Shown: positions 59,141 through 64,000 of the stretch, piece by piece | Layout: the number at the start of each line of letters is the position of its first letter | How positions within the stretch are numbered: position 1 is the stretch's first letter | Position numbers and translations under genes: made by a program | Assembly (NCBI RefSeq): GCF_021554725.1 | Contig: NZ_JAIZDP010000005.1 | Span: forward strand, 124,001 to 188,000 | DNA length: 64,000 bases | Direction of reading: 5' to 3' | Origin: Sinomonas notoginsengisoli | GTDB taxonomy: Bacteria > Actinomycetota > Actinomycetes > Actinomycetales > Micrococcaceae | The notes under the pieces: generated by a model | Database searches by the model: none | Told to the model about the DNA's origin: nothing | The model's input: only the letters and a program-made list of their open reading frames with translations

Positions 59141-59446
59141 TCAGGCCTCCCGGCGGAACTGCACCTTCCACTCCTCGGGCCCTTCGGCCAGGAACGAGAT
59201 GTCGAAGGCGCCCTCGCGGTAGCGCTGCTCGACCTGGGCCAGGAGGGGGAGCGGGGCGTGGTTGGCGACGATCACGAGTCCGGAGCCGACAGCGAGGGAG
59301 TCGAGTGCACCGAAGATGGTCGCGTGGCGGATGGCGTGGGGGATGACGCGCACATCGAGTTCGGGGAAGCCCTCGGCGTCGTGCTCCCCGCAGGCGCACG
59401 AGGACTTCTGGGTCAGGGTCAGCGGGTGTGCCTCGGTGTACTCCAT
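59141..59446 (-). CDS. DUF2249 protein
   Basis: 101 residues. 'CACGEHDAEGFPELDVRVIP' and 'AIFGALDSLAVGSGLVIVAN' plus 'HAPLPLLAQVEQRY' are the DUF2249 pattern, a TusA-like fold. Such proteins are often encoded next to nitrite/nitric-oxide genes and cysteine pairs like C17-x-C19 may bind metal or sulfur. The ATG at 59446 has GAAAGGA 7 bases upstream on the minus strand. It is divergent from the COG2345 regulator. Confidence 0.86.
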   Translation of the reverse strand: MEYTEAHPLTLTQKSSCACGEHDAEGFPELDVRVIPHAIRHATIFGALDSLAVGSGLVIVANHAPLPLLAQVEQRYREGAFDISFLAEGPEEWKVQFRREA

Positions 59447-59486
59447 GTCATGTCCTTTCGGTGAGGTCTCCAAGGCCAAACTTTAC

Positions 59487-59492
59487 TACAAT
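59487..59492 (+). promoter_or_regulatory. Leaderless-type -10 of the nirK-cluster regulator
   Basis: TACAAT ends 7 bases before the GTG at 59500. The 54-base gap to the divergent DUF2249 gene must hold both promoters. Confidence 0.5.
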
Positions 59493-59499
59493 AAATTCC

Positions 59500-60210
59500 G
59501 TGAAAAACAATCCGCGCGGCCCGCAGGCCACGTCGCCTGGCCCAGCAACGCCGCTCTCTGCTGCGCGCGCGGCGATCCTGGACCTCCTGCGAGCCAAGGG
59601 CAGACCCAGCACCGTCGAGGAGCTCGCGCGGGAGACGCGCCAGCACCCCAACACCGTCCGGGAGCACCTGGAGGCGCTCGTGGGCGTTGACTTGGCCGAA
59701 CTCTCGGACGGCCCTCCGCTGGGGGAGGGCCGTCCGGGCCGGCGAGGACGCCCTGCCAAGCACTATCGCGCCGCCTCGCCCGCCATAGGATCGTCCAGCT
59801 ACGCGGGGCTGGCCGCCGTCCTGGCGGGGGAGCTTGCACGCCTCGCGCCGGATCCCCAGGCAGCGGGGGCGGAGGCGGGGCGCAGCTGGGCCCGCCAGAC
59901 GCTCGGCGAGGCCGCGGCCACCCGTACGGCCGCTGACGCACGACGCCGCGTGCTCGCCGAACTCGATGAGCTCGGCTTCGGCGTCGATACGGCACCCGAT
60001 CCGGCTGGAAAGCCAAACGACGAGACGGTGGCCCGCCTTGTCACGTGCCCGCTGCTGTCCGCAGCCCGGGACCAGCCCGGCGTCGTGTGCTCGGTCCACG
60101 CGGGGCTCGTCGAGGAGTCGCTCCGACTCCTCGGCCATCCCGAGGTCGCCTCCAGGCTCGAGCCGTTTGCCGAGCCCGGCGCGTGCCTCCTCACGATCGG
60201 GCGGGCATGA
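59500..60210 (+). CDS. ArsR-like (COG2345) transcriptional regulator
   Basis: 236 residues. The N-terminal winged HTH ('ARAAILDLLRAKGRPSTVEE', 'TRQHPNTVREHLEALV') precedes a C-terminal domain with C183-x13-C197-x2-H200 ('TCPLLSAARDQPGVVCSVH'), a conserved cysteine pattern of the COG2345 group that in SufR relatives binds an Fe-S cluster. It could sense NO or redox and control the downstream genes; this is inference. The 3' end overlaps the next gene by 4 bases (ATGA). Confidence 0.88.
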   Translation: MKNNPRGPQATSPGPATPLSAARAAILDLLRAKGRPSTVEELARETRQHPNTVREHLEALVGVDLAELSDGPPLGEGRPGRRGRPAKHYRAASPAIGSSSYAGLAAVLAGELARLAPDPQAAGAEAGRSWARQTLGEAAATRTAADARRRVLAELDELGFGVDTAPDPAGKPNDETVARLVTCPLLSAARDQPGVVCSVHAGLVEESLRLLGHPEVASRLEPFAEPGACLLTIGRA

Positions 60211-61420
60211 GCGGAGCCGCCACAAGCCGGCCGGCTGCTGGCAGGAAGCGCGCGGTGAAGGGCGCACCGAAGATCGCGACGACCGTCTGGCCCCGGGCAC
60301 TCCTGCTCGTGCTGGGCGGGGCCTCCCTCGTGGCAGGGCTCGACGCCGCCCTCGTCCTCCTCGGCGTCCCGGCACCCGTGGGCAGCGCCCAGGCCCCCGC
60401 GCTGCCCGCCGCACACGGAAGCCTCATGGTGTTCGGCTTCGTGGGCACGCTCATCGCACTGGAGAGGGCCGTGGCACTGCGGCGGGTCTGGGGCTACTCG
60501 GCCCCGGCGCTCCTCGGGATCGGTTCTGTGGCCCAGCTCGCGCCCGCGCTCGGTGCGGAAACGGCGTGGGCCGCGCGCGTCGTCGTACTCGCGGGCGCTG
60601 TGATGTTCGTCGTAGTCTACGTCCCCCTGTGGCGCCGCCAGCGGGACCCCGCGGTGCTCGTCCAGGCCCTTGGGGCGCTCGCCGCTGCGGGCGCGGCCGC
60701 GCTGCTGGCCGTCGGCGTGCCCGTGCCCGCCGTGGTGCCCTGGTTCGGGGCCTTCCTCCTCGCGACGATCGCGGGGGAGCGGCTTGAGCTCGCCCGCCTG
60801 CGGATCCGAGGGCGCTGGGCGGAGCCGCTGCTCGTCGCGGCGTGCGCCGCGATCGTGGTCCTGTGCCCTGCCACCCTGCTGTGGCCCGCCGTGGGCTATC
60901 CGCTCTTTGGGGGGCGCTGCTCGGCCTCGCCGCGTGGCTCGTGGCCTATGACGTGGCACGCGCCACCATCCGCTCCCACGGGCTGCCACGGTTCGTCGCC
61001 GCATGCCTCCTCGCGGGCTATGCCTGGCTCGTGGTGGCTGCCGCCGTCTGCCTCCTCGTCCCCGGAGCGCCCGCAGGCGCGGCATATGACGCGTTCCTGC
61101 ACGCGATGTTCCTCGGCTTCGTGATGTCCATGATCATGGCCCATGCGCCCGTGATCCTCCCCGCCGTCCTGCGCAGGCCTCTCCCGTATCGGCCCGTCAT
61201 GTGGATCCCGGCTGCCCTCCTGCACGCGACGCTCGTGCTGCGGCTCGGCCTGGGCGACGCGCGCGGGGACATCGCGGCGTGGCAGTGGGGCGGCTCCGGG
61301 AACGTCGTCGCGGTGCTCACATTCGTCGCAGTGGCCGCCTACTCGGCGCTGACCGGACCACCGGCGCCAGGCAGTGCGGCCGGTCCCAGTCGAGACGTCG
61401 TCAGGGAGGCCCGATCGTGA
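60207..61420 (+). pseudogene. NnrS-like polytopic membrane protein, interrupted by a frameshift in a G6 run
   Basis: Reading frame 60207 onward encodes about 235 residues of a membrane protein ('AHGSLMVFGFVGTLIALERAV', 'PWFGAFLLATIAGERLEL') up to 'AVGYPLFGG'. At the G-run 60909-60914 the sense continues in another frame ('GALLGLAAWLVAYDVARATI', then 'MSMIMAHAPVILPAVL') to a stop at 61420. One extra G would restore a 404-residue protein with about eleven helices, resembling NnrS heme/copper membrane proteins of denitrifiers. It is either a real mutation, a slippage-controlled gene, or a sequencing error. It lies between the regulator and nirK, overlapping both by 4 bases. Confidence 0.7.
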
Positions 61421-64000
61421 CGCCCCGGATCGGCCCCTCGCCGTCCCTGCCCAGTCTGCGGCCCGGCCCCGGACGCCCCGCCGCCGGAGGTACCAGCGCA
61501 GGGGGCCCAGGCAGGCCGGGGACCGGCCGCGCCGCCTGGCACCGCTGGGCGAACGCCCCGACGCTCGCGTGGCTCGCGGCCATCGCGGTCCTCGCGGGGA
61601 TCCACCGGGGCATCCCGGCATCCGGGTGGCTCCTGACGCACCTCGCGCTCCTGGGAGCTGCGACGAATGCAATCCTCGTCTACTCGTGGCACTTCGCCGA
61701 GGCGCTCCTGCGCCTGCCCGTGCCCTCCAGAAAGTCCCTCGCTGCCCGGATCGTCCTGCTGAACGCGGGCGCGGCCGCCGCGATGGCCGGAGTCGTCACG
61801 GCGGTGTGGCCGGCAGCTGTCATCGGTGCCGCCGCGGTGGGCGTGGCAGCGGGATGGCAGGGCATCGCCCTGCTTCTCCGCCTCCGCCGGGCCCTCCCGT
61901 CACGGTTCGCCTCGACACTGCGGTACTACCTCGCCGCATGCGCGCTCCTGCCGTTCGGCGCGGCAGCAGGTGCCCTGCTGGCACTGCCCGGCGCCGACGA
62001 CGGCGGTGACCTCCACCCCCGCCTCCTGCTCGCCCACGAGTCCATCAATGTGCTCGGCTGGGTGGGCCTGAGCGTCCTGGGCACGCTCGTGACCCTCCTG
62101 CCCACCATGCTTCGCACCCGCGCCCACGAGACGGCCGAACCCACCGCCCGCAGGGCCCTGTGGATCCTGCTGGCCGGCGTTGCGGCCGCGGCGGGCGGCG
62201 CGCTGGCGGGGAACCGCCTTGTGGTCGCCGCGGGCGCCCTCGTGTACCTCGGCGGGGTCCTGGTCTCCGCCGTCCCGCTGGCCCTCGCGGTCCGCAGCAG
62301 GCCACCGGTCGCGTTCGCGCCCCTGTCCGCGGTGGCCTCCCTCCTGTGGCTCACGGGTGCGCTAGTGCGGCTCGTGTGGCTGTGCGCGACGGCGCCGGAC
62401 TGGGAAGCCCTGCACCTCGCGCTCGGGGACCTCACCCCGACGCTCGCCGCCGGGTTCGCTGCCCAGGTGCTCCTCGGGGCGCTCTCGTACCTCCTCCCGG
62501 TGGTGCTCGGCGGCGGTCCCTCCGTTGTGCGGCGGCGCACCGACATGCTCGACGCCGGGGCGTGGTTCCGCGTTGTGCTCGCCAACGGTGCACTCGCCCT
62601 GTACATGCTCCCCGTGCCGAGCACCGTGCGGGTCGCTGCCGCCGTCGCTGGGCTCCTGGCGCTCATCGCCTTTGTGTGGCTCGCGGCGCGGGCGGTCCTG
62701 TCCCGGCCCCGGCCAGAAGACCAGGAGAAGCACCCTGCCGGCTCAGGGCCGATCGCCGTGGGCGCCTCGGTGCGCAGCAGGCTCGGGTCCGGTGCTGTGG
62801 GCCTTGCCGTCCTCCTCGCTGCTGTCCTCTCAGGCGTCGCCGCCGATCCCTCGGTCCTGCCGACGGCCGCCGGAGGCTCCCCCGCCACAGGTGCGGCGGC
62901 GACCGCCGGAGGGACCGGCGTCGTGCCCAGCGGCCACACCACCACAGTGGAGGTCGCCATGTCAGGGATGCGCTTCGTCCCGGACGCCGTCGCCGTCCCG
63001 GCCGGGGACAGGCTCGTCATCAAGCTGACCAATAAGGACCAGACGCCCCACGACCTCGTGCTCGCGACCGGCCAGGACTCCGGGCGGATCTACCCCGGCC
63101 AGGGCGGACAGCTCGACGCGGGCGTCATGACCGGCTCGGCCAACGGCTGGTGTTCTGTGGTCGGGCACAAGCAGATGGGCATGGTGTTCCGCGTGAACGT
63201 GACGGGATCCCAGCCTGCGGCGGCCCCGGCCGCAGGGATGGATATGCCGGGCATGCAGCACACCGCCGCGTCTGCTTCGCCCTCGGCGGCCAGCCCACCG
63301 AGCCCCCATGCGCCGTACCCCGCGGCTCTTCCCGCAGCCGAGGCAGGAACGGTGCACAAGGTCACGCTGACCGTGCGCGACACCGTCACCGAAGTCGCGC
63401 CCGGCGTCGAGCAGACGCTGTGGACCTACAACGGCACTGCGCCGGGACCCGTGCTCCACGGACGGGTGGGGGACAGGTTCGAGGTCACGCTCGTGAACAA
63501 TGCCTCTGCCGGCCACTCGATCGACTTCCACGCTGGGGCCCTCGCACCGGACGGCCCCATGCGCACGATCGATCCCGGCCAGTCCCTCATCTATGCCTTC
63601 ACGGCCAACCAGCCCGGCATCTGGATGTACCACTGCAGCACCATGCCGATGTCGCTGCACATCGCCAACGGAATGTTCGGTGCCGTGGTGATCGATCCGC
63701 GCGACGAGCCGCCCGTGGACCATGAGTTCGTCCTCGTTCAGAGCGAGCAGTACCGCGGGGCCGCTGCAAACGGGATCCCTGGCATCGCCGATCCTGACGC
63801 GGTCTCTGCGAAGATCACGGCGGCGACGCCGGACGCCGTCGTGTTCAACGGCTACCCCAGCCAGTACGACGCCGCGCCGCTGGCCGTGCGGGTGGGCGAG
63901 CGGGTGCGCGTCTGGGTGCTCGACGCCGGGCCTAGCCACGCGACGTCGTTCCATGTGGTGGGGGCGCAGTTCAGCGCCGCGTGGGCTGAGGGTGCGTACC
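61417..64000 (+). CDS. Membrane-cupredoxin-NirK fusion protein (copper nitrite reductase type), 3' end cut by the window
   Basis: An open frame of 861 codons runs off the window. Residues about 30-490 contain about twelve membrane helices with 'LAHESINVLGWVGLSVLGTL', like the NnrS/heme-copper family. Residues about 505-600 form a cupredoxin with all type 1 copper ligands (H545, C579, H584, M587 or M589). From about 645 a NirK-like multicopper domain has type 1 ligands H700, C740, H748, M753 and type 2 ligands H705, H739 ('HSIDFH', 'YHC', 'SLHIANGM'). It should reduce nitrite to NO or oxidise another substrate at the outer membrane face, with electrons passing through the cupredoxin. Three modules in one chain is unusual. 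The GTG start overlaps the preceding stop (GTGA). Confidence 0.85.
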   Translation, partial: MTPRIGPSPSLPSLRPGPGRPAAGGTSAGGPGRPGTGRAAWHRWANAPTLAWLAAIAVLAGIHRGIPASGWLLTHLALLGAATNAILVYSWHFAEALLRLPVPSRKSLAARIVLLNAGAAAAMAGVVTAVWPAAVIGAAAVGVAAGWQGIALLLRLRRALPSRFASTLRYYLAACALLPFGAAAGALLALPGADDGGDLHPRLLLAHESINVLGWVGLSVLGTLVTLLPTMLRTRAHETAEPTARRALWILLAGVAAAAGGALAGNRLVVAAGALVYLGGVLVSAVPLALAVRSRPPVAFAPLSAVASLLWLTGALVRLVWLCATAPDWEALHLALGDLTPTLAAGFAAQVLLGALSYLLPVVLGGGPSVVRRRTDMLDAGAWFRVVLANGALALYMLPVPSTVRVAAAVAGLLALIAFVWLAARAVLSRPRPEDQEKHPAGSGPIAVGASVRSRLGSGAVGLAVLLAAVLSGVAADPSVLPTAAGGSPATGAAATAGGTGVVPSGHTTTVEVAMSGMRFVPDAVAVPAGDRLVIKLTNKDQTPHDLVLATGQDSGRIYPGQGGQLDAGVMTGSANGWCSVVGHKQMGMVFRVNVTGSQPAAAPAAGMDMPGMQHTAASASPSAASPPSPHAPYPAALPAAEAGTVHKVTLTVRDTVTEVAPGVEQTLWTYNGTAPGPVLHGRVGDRFEVTLVNNASAGHSIDFHAGALAPDGPMRTIDPGQSLIYAFTANQPGIWMYHCSTMPMSLHIANGMFGAVVIDPRDEPPVDHEFVLVQSEQYRGAAANGIPGIADPDAVSAKITAATPDAVVFNGYPSQYDAAPLAVRVGERVRVWVLDAGPSHATSFHVVGAQFSAAWAEGAY

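Follow-up and report, generated by a model that had tools for sequence, protein, structure and literature searches.

Among the copper nitrite reductases (CuNIRs), the layout closest to the one treated here was described by Decleyre et al. (2016; PMC4770552) for actinobacterial NirK proteins of ~900 amino acids (aa), e.g. that of Propionibacterium (Cutibacterium) acnes. The passages of that paper drawn on here list a 400-aa transmembrane N-terminal domain of "unknown function", a cupredoxin with the motif CX4HX4M and the NirK core, and point to an earlier report (their reference 20, Ellis et al. 2007); on the fold of the membrane domain, its partners or the genes around it they say nothing. We analysed a gene of this kind from Sinomonas notoginsengisoli, which begins within a stretch of 64,000 nucleotides (the window; contig NZ_JAIZDP010000005.1, positions 124,001 to 188,000, forward strand) and continues beyond its end. 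Its product matches the published description (922 aa, CX4HX4M, transmembrane domain), and no difference in layout was found in a comparison that did not include an alignment with the P. acnes sequence. We propose that it is an actinobacterial membrane-anchored CuNIR whose cupredoxin and oxidase-fold membrane domain most likely pass electrons to NirK, a reading to which we assign a probability of roughly 0.55.

The layout is already known, since it is described in the 2016 paper, and it is widespread in actinobacteria. In the open full-text literature that was searched, we found no description of the fold of the membrane domain, of its NirK-linked unfused homologues, of the gene cluster or of the pairing with a second membrane protein. 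An earlier interpretation of the window from its letters alone (the sequence-only reading) knew no characterised protein of this layout. This stands as far as functional work on the domain is concerned, none of which was found in the literature searched, but not for the layout itself.

Layout and distribution of the fusion gene

The gene starts with GTG at 61417 and, read past the window into its own contig (G000:C28), forms a frame of 922 residues without an internal stop. Twelve membrane helices come first; then follow helix 13, the type 1 copper cupredoxin and the NirK core, which is complete:

61417..64000, + strand, on to the stop codon at 64183-64185 (L006:9417-12185): fusion gene, 922 aa, unbroken in its own contig
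61528..62700, + strand: twelve-helix membrane domain, residues 38-428 (AlphaFold2 (AF2) model, Foldseek, conservation)
62770..62844, + strand: helix 13, residues 452-476, which takes the chain to the outer face (models, hydropathy, lysine and arginine counts)
62929..63204, + strand: type 1 copper cupredoxin, residues 505-596 (Pfam Cupredoxin_1, E 1.4e-8; ligands in 88/88 aligned proteins)
63334..64000, extending to 64170, + strand: NirK core, residues 640-918 (TIGR02376, solved CuNIRs, Foldseek, alignment)

The same one-frame layout was present in all 80 loci taken from a collection of named genomes. For 79 of them it was established by a script whose motif test did not require the cupredoxin (these 79 are all in the 88-protein alignment), and for the 80th (L112) by profile. 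The 80 are the best of at least 557 confirmed candidates in that collection and are for this reason biased towards full-length copies. They represent Sinomonas, Arthrobacter, Paeniglutamicibacter, Oerskovia, Cryobacterium, Brevibacterium, Streptomyces, Nocardioides, Mycobacterium, Rhodococcus, Geodermatophilus and others. A near full-length fusion was also found in 14 of 38 related genomes, own genome included (15 loci, one genome having two copies); 22 of the 38 gave any hit, those without the fusion being multicopper-oxidase-type, NirK-only, or the two deviating cases described below (G006 and G026). The fused layout is thus confirmed as real. The sequence-only reading had joined a membrane part, a cupredoxin and NirK in one chain, had asked whether a stop or frame break lies at the joins, and had proposed looking for the same architecture in relatives; the unbroken frame, its recurrence in every named locus and its presence in many actinobacterial genera bear this out, and among the related genomes G006 and G026 deviate.

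In G006 (L021), of the same genus, a membrane part with two stops was seen, and cupredoxin and NirK were not found within 1.5 kb; this genome has probably lost the fusion gene. In G026 (L022, 1447-4229), the second half of the upstream membrane protein (see below), a helix, cupredoxin and NirK share one frame. This copy is without the main membrane domain, has the first half of the upstream protein in another frame, and looks degenerate at its C-terminal end. The copy in a record titled Sporosarcina beigongshangi (L042) shares 76% identity with one from Arthrobacter and has a G+C content of 66.6%; mislabelling or contamination of the record is probable.

The AF2 model of the whole chain has a predicted local distance difference test score (pLDDT) of 87.4 and a predicted template modelling score (pTM) of 0.68, with 13 helices of 16-36 residues within residues 38-476 and two shorter ones. 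Hydropathy likewise gives 12 segments across 44-424 and a 13th at 458-476. Lysine and arginine are concentrated on the inner loops (26 in 153 residues, versus 4 in 77 outer-loop residues), which by the charge rule places everything past helix 13, and hence the copper domains, outside. The membrane tether suggested by the sequence-only reading is supported.

Conservation of the copper sites was examined in an alignment of 88 fusion proteins, comprising 79 of the 80 named loci, the window protein and 8 proteins from relatives (L009-L014 and L112 excluded). Twelve residues are invariant, each in 88/88: H545, C579, H584, M589, H700, D703, H705, H739, C740, H748, H846 and H903. The first four are the ligands of the cupredoxin (C579-x4-H584-x4-M589, i.e. 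CX4HX4M). The type 1 copper of NirK is bound by H700, C740, H748 and M753, its type 2 copper by H705, H739 and H903, and D703 and H846 are the catalytic residues. The codon of H846 (63952-63954) lies inside the window, that of H903 (64123-64125) beyond it, so that the type 2 ligand still missing at position 64000 is found on reading further. The other ligands had been named correctly from the sequence, with M587 or M589 left as alternatives for the cupredoxin; residue 587 is methionine in only 70/88 aligned proteins, whereas M589 never varies. Residue 753 is methionine in 74/88 and leucine in 14/88, e.g. in several Nocardioides; leucine in place of the axial methionine of a type 1 copper may raise the copper potential.

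By sequence, the nearest solved structures are the CuNIRs 3wi9 (E 7.1e-43) and 2dv6 (E 1.5e-42), and 2dv6 also ranks first in Foldseek with the whole model; among solved proteins, both approaches place CuNIRs of two and of three domains nearest.

The membrane domain and its unfused relatives

For residues 38-480 (67 sequences), AF2 gave a model with pLDDT 95.2 and pTM 0.93, according to which the membrane domain looks like the twelve-helix fold of heme-copper oxidase subunit I. Every one of the 18 structures that Foldseek matched at E <= 0.001 was a cbb3 or ba3 oxidase (prob 1.00, template modelling (TM) score normalised to the query 0.56-0.65), the best being 8smr_E (E 6.3e-6, TM 0.63). The chains were identified by the titles and lengths of their entries. 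Of the 50 rows listed, numbers 19-49 comprise further ba3, aa3-type and ubiquinol oxidases and lastly three qNOR; row 50 is unrelated. We aligned 67 membrane domains, 51 from the 88 fusion proteins and 16 from standalone proteins. H75 in helix 2 and H207 in helix 6 are the only histidines that are invariant across fused and unfused versions (51/51 and 16/16, respectively), and W311 is likewise invariant (67/67).

Sequence comparison gave the domain no family name. Pfam did not name it in the window protein or in 67 scanned members, one of which matched COX1 (E 1.3e-4) while scattered others hit unrelated families. In three relatives, COX1 matched at the fusion with E 1e-5 to 1e-4, below the cut-off. 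Membership in the heme-copper oxidase family proper was rejected, as most of the histidine ligands are missing. A profile of the membrane part had only two hits in PDB (E 0.09 and 0.31, sugar-transporter-type chains), on which grounds sequence homology to solved proteins was also rejected. No confident match was obtained by hhalign against the local ctaD, the upstream protein or one NnrS protein.

The sequence-only reading had called this part NnrS-like, a claim that holds only to a small degree. The membrane profile did match one PF05940 (NnrS) protein at 33.4 bits over helices 5-10, with a bias of 14.0 (523 open reading frames searched). On the other hand, the fold is that of oxidase subunit I by the model, PF05940 was unmatched at E 0.001 at the own locus and at the fusion and membrane loci of 35 relatives and 295 further genomes of the phylum, and the 13 families that the 67 scanned members matched at E 0.1 did not include NnrS. 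Strict NnrS membership, with no PF05940 match at E 0.001 or at the Pfam gathering score, was rejected. The earlier interpretation as a whole is partly supported.

The membrane part is not confined to the fusion and occurs unfused in other actinobacterial classes. It was found in 40 of 296 genomes of the phylum, fused in 7 and otherwise in 33; one of the latter (G064), whose frame contains a stop, may be a broken fusion. Of the 296 genomes, 37 gave NirK-type matches of at least 135 bits, the next scores being 100 bits or less; this threshold was picked after the scores had been seen, and one genome counted in (G232) has a partial match only. Leaving the 7 fusion genomes aside, 33 of 289 genomes have the membrane protein and 30 have NirK; both occur together in 23, with 3.4 expected (Fisher p 2e-20, not corrected for kinship), and genomes with both belong to 14 families.

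For 17 of the 33 non-fusion genomes (G064 included) the surrounding regions were read. A nirK-type gene adjoins the membrane gene in four (L170, L171 with a cupredoxin, L176 and L180). In L173 and L183 the membrane gene lies near homologues of the regulator and the DUF2249 protein described below, and in L183 also near the upstream protein; L169 shows a cupredoxin-like frame only, and L181 a distant regulator only. Two further genomes (G087 and G110) have, judged by coordinates, a NirK on the strand of the membrane gene and no more than 0.8 kb away from it.

In the membrane tree (39 fused and 16 unfused rows), the fused domains lie on one side of a branch with a support of 97/98. The fused rows also lie on one side of a branch in the NirK tree, with a support of 30/14 and the separate genes on long branches, so that for a single origin of the fusion we refer to the membrane tree only.

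The genes upstream

Three genes precede the fusion gene in the window:

60207..61420, + strand: second polytopic membrane protein ("memup", the upstream protein; homologue upstream on the same strand in 72/81 regions)
59500..60210, + strand: helix-turn-helix (HTH) regulator (Pfam HTH_20, E 8e-9; upstream in 64/81 regions)
59141..59479, - strand: divergent DUF2249 protein (PF10006, E 5.7e-23; on the opposite strand in 58/81 regions)

The 81 regions are the 80 named loci and the window, and several end at contig ends. The counts for regulator and DUF2249 protein consider one strand at E 1e-8; less strictly, they rise to 71 and 69 of 80. All three neighbours occur in 55/81 regions, 48 of which have the order seen in the window. 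No tRNA was found near the fusion gene.

In the window, the stop of the upstream gene overlaps the start of the fusion gene by 4 bases (GTGA). The same overlap with a possible fusion start was seen at 61 of 71 junctions, a count that took the start nearest the stop and thereby favours this overlap; in 71 regions besides the window, the upstream stop lies -63 to +120 bases from the start of the fusion match. H83, H316 and H330 are invariant in 27 aligned upstream proteins. Pfam did not name the protein in the 27 members scanned (one match to an unrelated family at E 0.044), and its profile had only two PDB hits (E 1.2 and 1.3). The window's copy is split into two frames with a break near 60908-60913, the sole such case among the 81 regions by profile. 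At the break, a run of G is one base shorter than in three relatives from Sinomonas; the alignment to a fourth contains three gaps. The narG gene of the same assembly (G000:C1:1127616-1131267; L186, L187) likewise lies in two overlapping frames, which hints at indel errors in the assembly or at real decay of nitrate respiration.

The frame of the regulator is open from 59428, and GTG at 59500 is the chosen start. Three cysteines and one histidine are nearly invariant in 67 sequences (C 67, C 66, H 66, C 65), a set that would fit a sensor of the iron-sulphur type. Between the DUF2249 gene and the regulator, ACTTTACTACAATAAAT at 59480-59496 is common to three Sinomonas relatives, occurs in looser form in Paeniglutamicibacter (L058) and was not seen in L041 (six regions compared of 13 tried); we regard it as a candidate operator. 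We take the DUF2249 protein to share its COG number, COG4309, with a gene of this type that is linked to norB. That linkage was noted in part of an earlier paper (PMC1274295). Elsewhere, in a distant actinobacterium (L191, G311), an NnrS-type protein of 508 aa adjoins a DUF2249-type gene.

Electron supply, nitric oxide and comparison with known systems

The protein is most likely an outward-facing, membrane-bound nitrite reductase, and we favour the feeding of electrons by its oxidase-like part. We infer nitrite reductase activity for the NirK core on the outer face, which would reduce nitrite to nitric oxide (NO) at the type 2 copper (H705, H739, H903) with protons supplied by D703 and H846 and electrons passed on by the type 1 copper. 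These electrons would most likely come from the cupredoxin and the oxidase-fold domain of the same chain, in this direction, and perhaps originate from menaquinol, oxidized via a heme that invariant histidines such as H75 or H207 may hold. The translationally coupled upstream protein would probably be a partner in the same complex. Together, the Cys-bearing regulator and the DUF2249 gene suggest control by nitrite, NO or redox state. A tentative extension, which we consider possible rather than probable, would be that an oxidase-derived module without an O2-reducing site became a dedicated NirK partner across Actinomycetota, kept separate in some classes and fused once with a cupredoxin in another. 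The product would be a menaquinol:nitrite oxidoreductase in which electrons avoid the bc complex and run from quinol via a membrane heme and the cupredoxin to NirK, with the upstream protein as second subunit.

Several observations weigh against the favoured reading as a nitrite reductase fed by its membrane domain. Subunit I of the oxidases has six histidine ligands, on helices 2, 6, 7, 7, 10 and 10. Here, this set is incomplete, with invariant histidines on helices 2 and 6 only; the 67 aligned sequences have no conserved histidine column in helices 7 and 10 (helix 10 holds Q350), so that a binuclear site of the oxidase type is not expected. H63 and H148 are conserved in fusions only, and the window protein has Q at 148. 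The top 18 Foldseek superpositions are loose (root mean square deviation 6-14 A), a search of 20 local ctaD proteins with the membrane profile found nothing, and in the weak COX1 and NnrS matches the beginning of the other family is paired with the part from helix 5 on. Given these faint matches and the loose superpositions, a helix-by-helix correspondence with the oxidases is unsure; the helix-5 offset may reflect internal pseudo-repeats of the fold. Ten of the 33 genomes with an unfused membrane protein have no NirK match of at least 135 bits, 7 of the 30 with an unfused NirK have no membrane protein, and 9 of the 17 non-fusion regions show no NirK, cupredoxin, regulator, DUF2249 or upstream-protein neighbour. 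TIGR02376 matches the window's NirK with E 1e-45 and 156.5 bits, below its curated cut-off of 296.3. Finally, in the sections of Decleyre et al. used here, the N-terminal cupredoxin of the Hyphomicrobium type is considered too distant from the core for effective electron transfer, and a mutant in the copper site of the cupredoxin is reported as more active (PMC4770552). The self-sufficient enzyme with its own electron donor that the sequence-only reading envisaged is conjectural and has to be weighed against these two statements.

That the membrane domain and the upstream protein instead handle NO, as an oxidase- or NnrS-like module which binds, transfers or reduces it and so protects a cell without canonical NO reductase, appears somewhat unlikely to us. 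It would fit the 13 of 14 fusion genomes that show strong oxidase-type COX1 hits only (three of them also a weak hit to the fusion itself); the fourteenth (G016) carries an 847-aa frame resembling qNOR, as judged by eye without a family search. It would also fit the own genome, in which one COX1 gene but no PF00042 globin was found (NO sinks beyond COX1-type proteins and globins were not searched for), and the absence of Nor in many cases for NirK Clades 2-4, as stated in the consulted part of Pold et al. (2024; PMC10999283). However, the conserved residues do not make an oxidase-type binuclear site, and the single truncated globin of the own genome could be an NO sink. We consider it unlikely that the membrane domain is a mere anchor or assembly platform that holds NirK in the membrane close to the cytochrome bc complex while ordinary donors, soluble or bc-linked, supply the electrons. 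Some actinobacterial NirK indeed have the cupredoxin without the membrane domain (PMC4770552, in the portion drawn on), and G026 lacks the main membrane domain, but the latter copy is the one that looks degenerate at its C-terminus, and twelve helices, three residues (H75, H207, W311) invariant in 67/67 sequences and a separate, co-occurring protein exceed the needs of an anchor.

Pfam labels the C-terminal part Cu-oxidase_3 and Cu-oxidase_2, which, along with the TIGR02376 score, would suit an enzyme other than a nitrite reductase, either a two-domain multicopper oxidase or one of the laccase-like kind. We regard this as very improbable: D703, H846, H705, H739 and H903 never vary in the 88 proteins, and the top solved matches are nitrite reductases. 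The TIGR02376 cut-off is passed in only 4 of the 296 phylum genomes, none of them with a fusion, so that it misses this clade in general. Decleyre et al., where consulted, class actinobacterial proteins of 700-990 aa as NirK (PMC4770552). An artefact of assembly or frame can be ruled out as the source of the fusion. The upstream gene and narG are each split in two frames, so this assembly may indeed hold indels, but identical frame and joins recur in all 80 named loci of many genera and in 13 of the 37 other related genomes.

With the domain recognised as an oxidase-fold protein that has free-standing, NirK-linked relatives and a conserved membrane neighbour, specific residues and a unit of two genes become open to testing. 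According to the consulted part of a global survey, geysers are the only biome in which actinobacterial (Clade 3) NirK is not prevalent (PMC10999283). With Clade 3 NirK this prevalent and Nor often absent, the electron source of NirK and the fate of NO bear on the release of NO and N2O from soil. In Intrasporangium calvum, a nirK that may or may not be a fusion is induced when nitrite appears (PMC6349771, seen in part).

Among known systems, NnrS (PF05940) is likewise polytopic and has an NO/nitrite context, but at E 0.001 PF05940 matched none of the fusion loci. Heme-copper oxidase subunit I (cbb3, ba3, aa3, qNOR) shares the twelve-helix fold and the inner N-terminus. In oxidases, subunit II contributes a cupredoxin on the outside, as follows the membrane domain here. 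The fusion differs from them in the absence of most histidine ligands and of a Pfam COX1 match at the cut-off, and its cupredoxin is type 1, not CuA. The three-domain CuNIR of Hyphomicrobium denitrificans (2dv6, 6tfd, 6tfo), the best Foldseek match to the whole model, has solved chains without a membrane domain and likewise combines an N-terminal cupredoxin with a NirK core.

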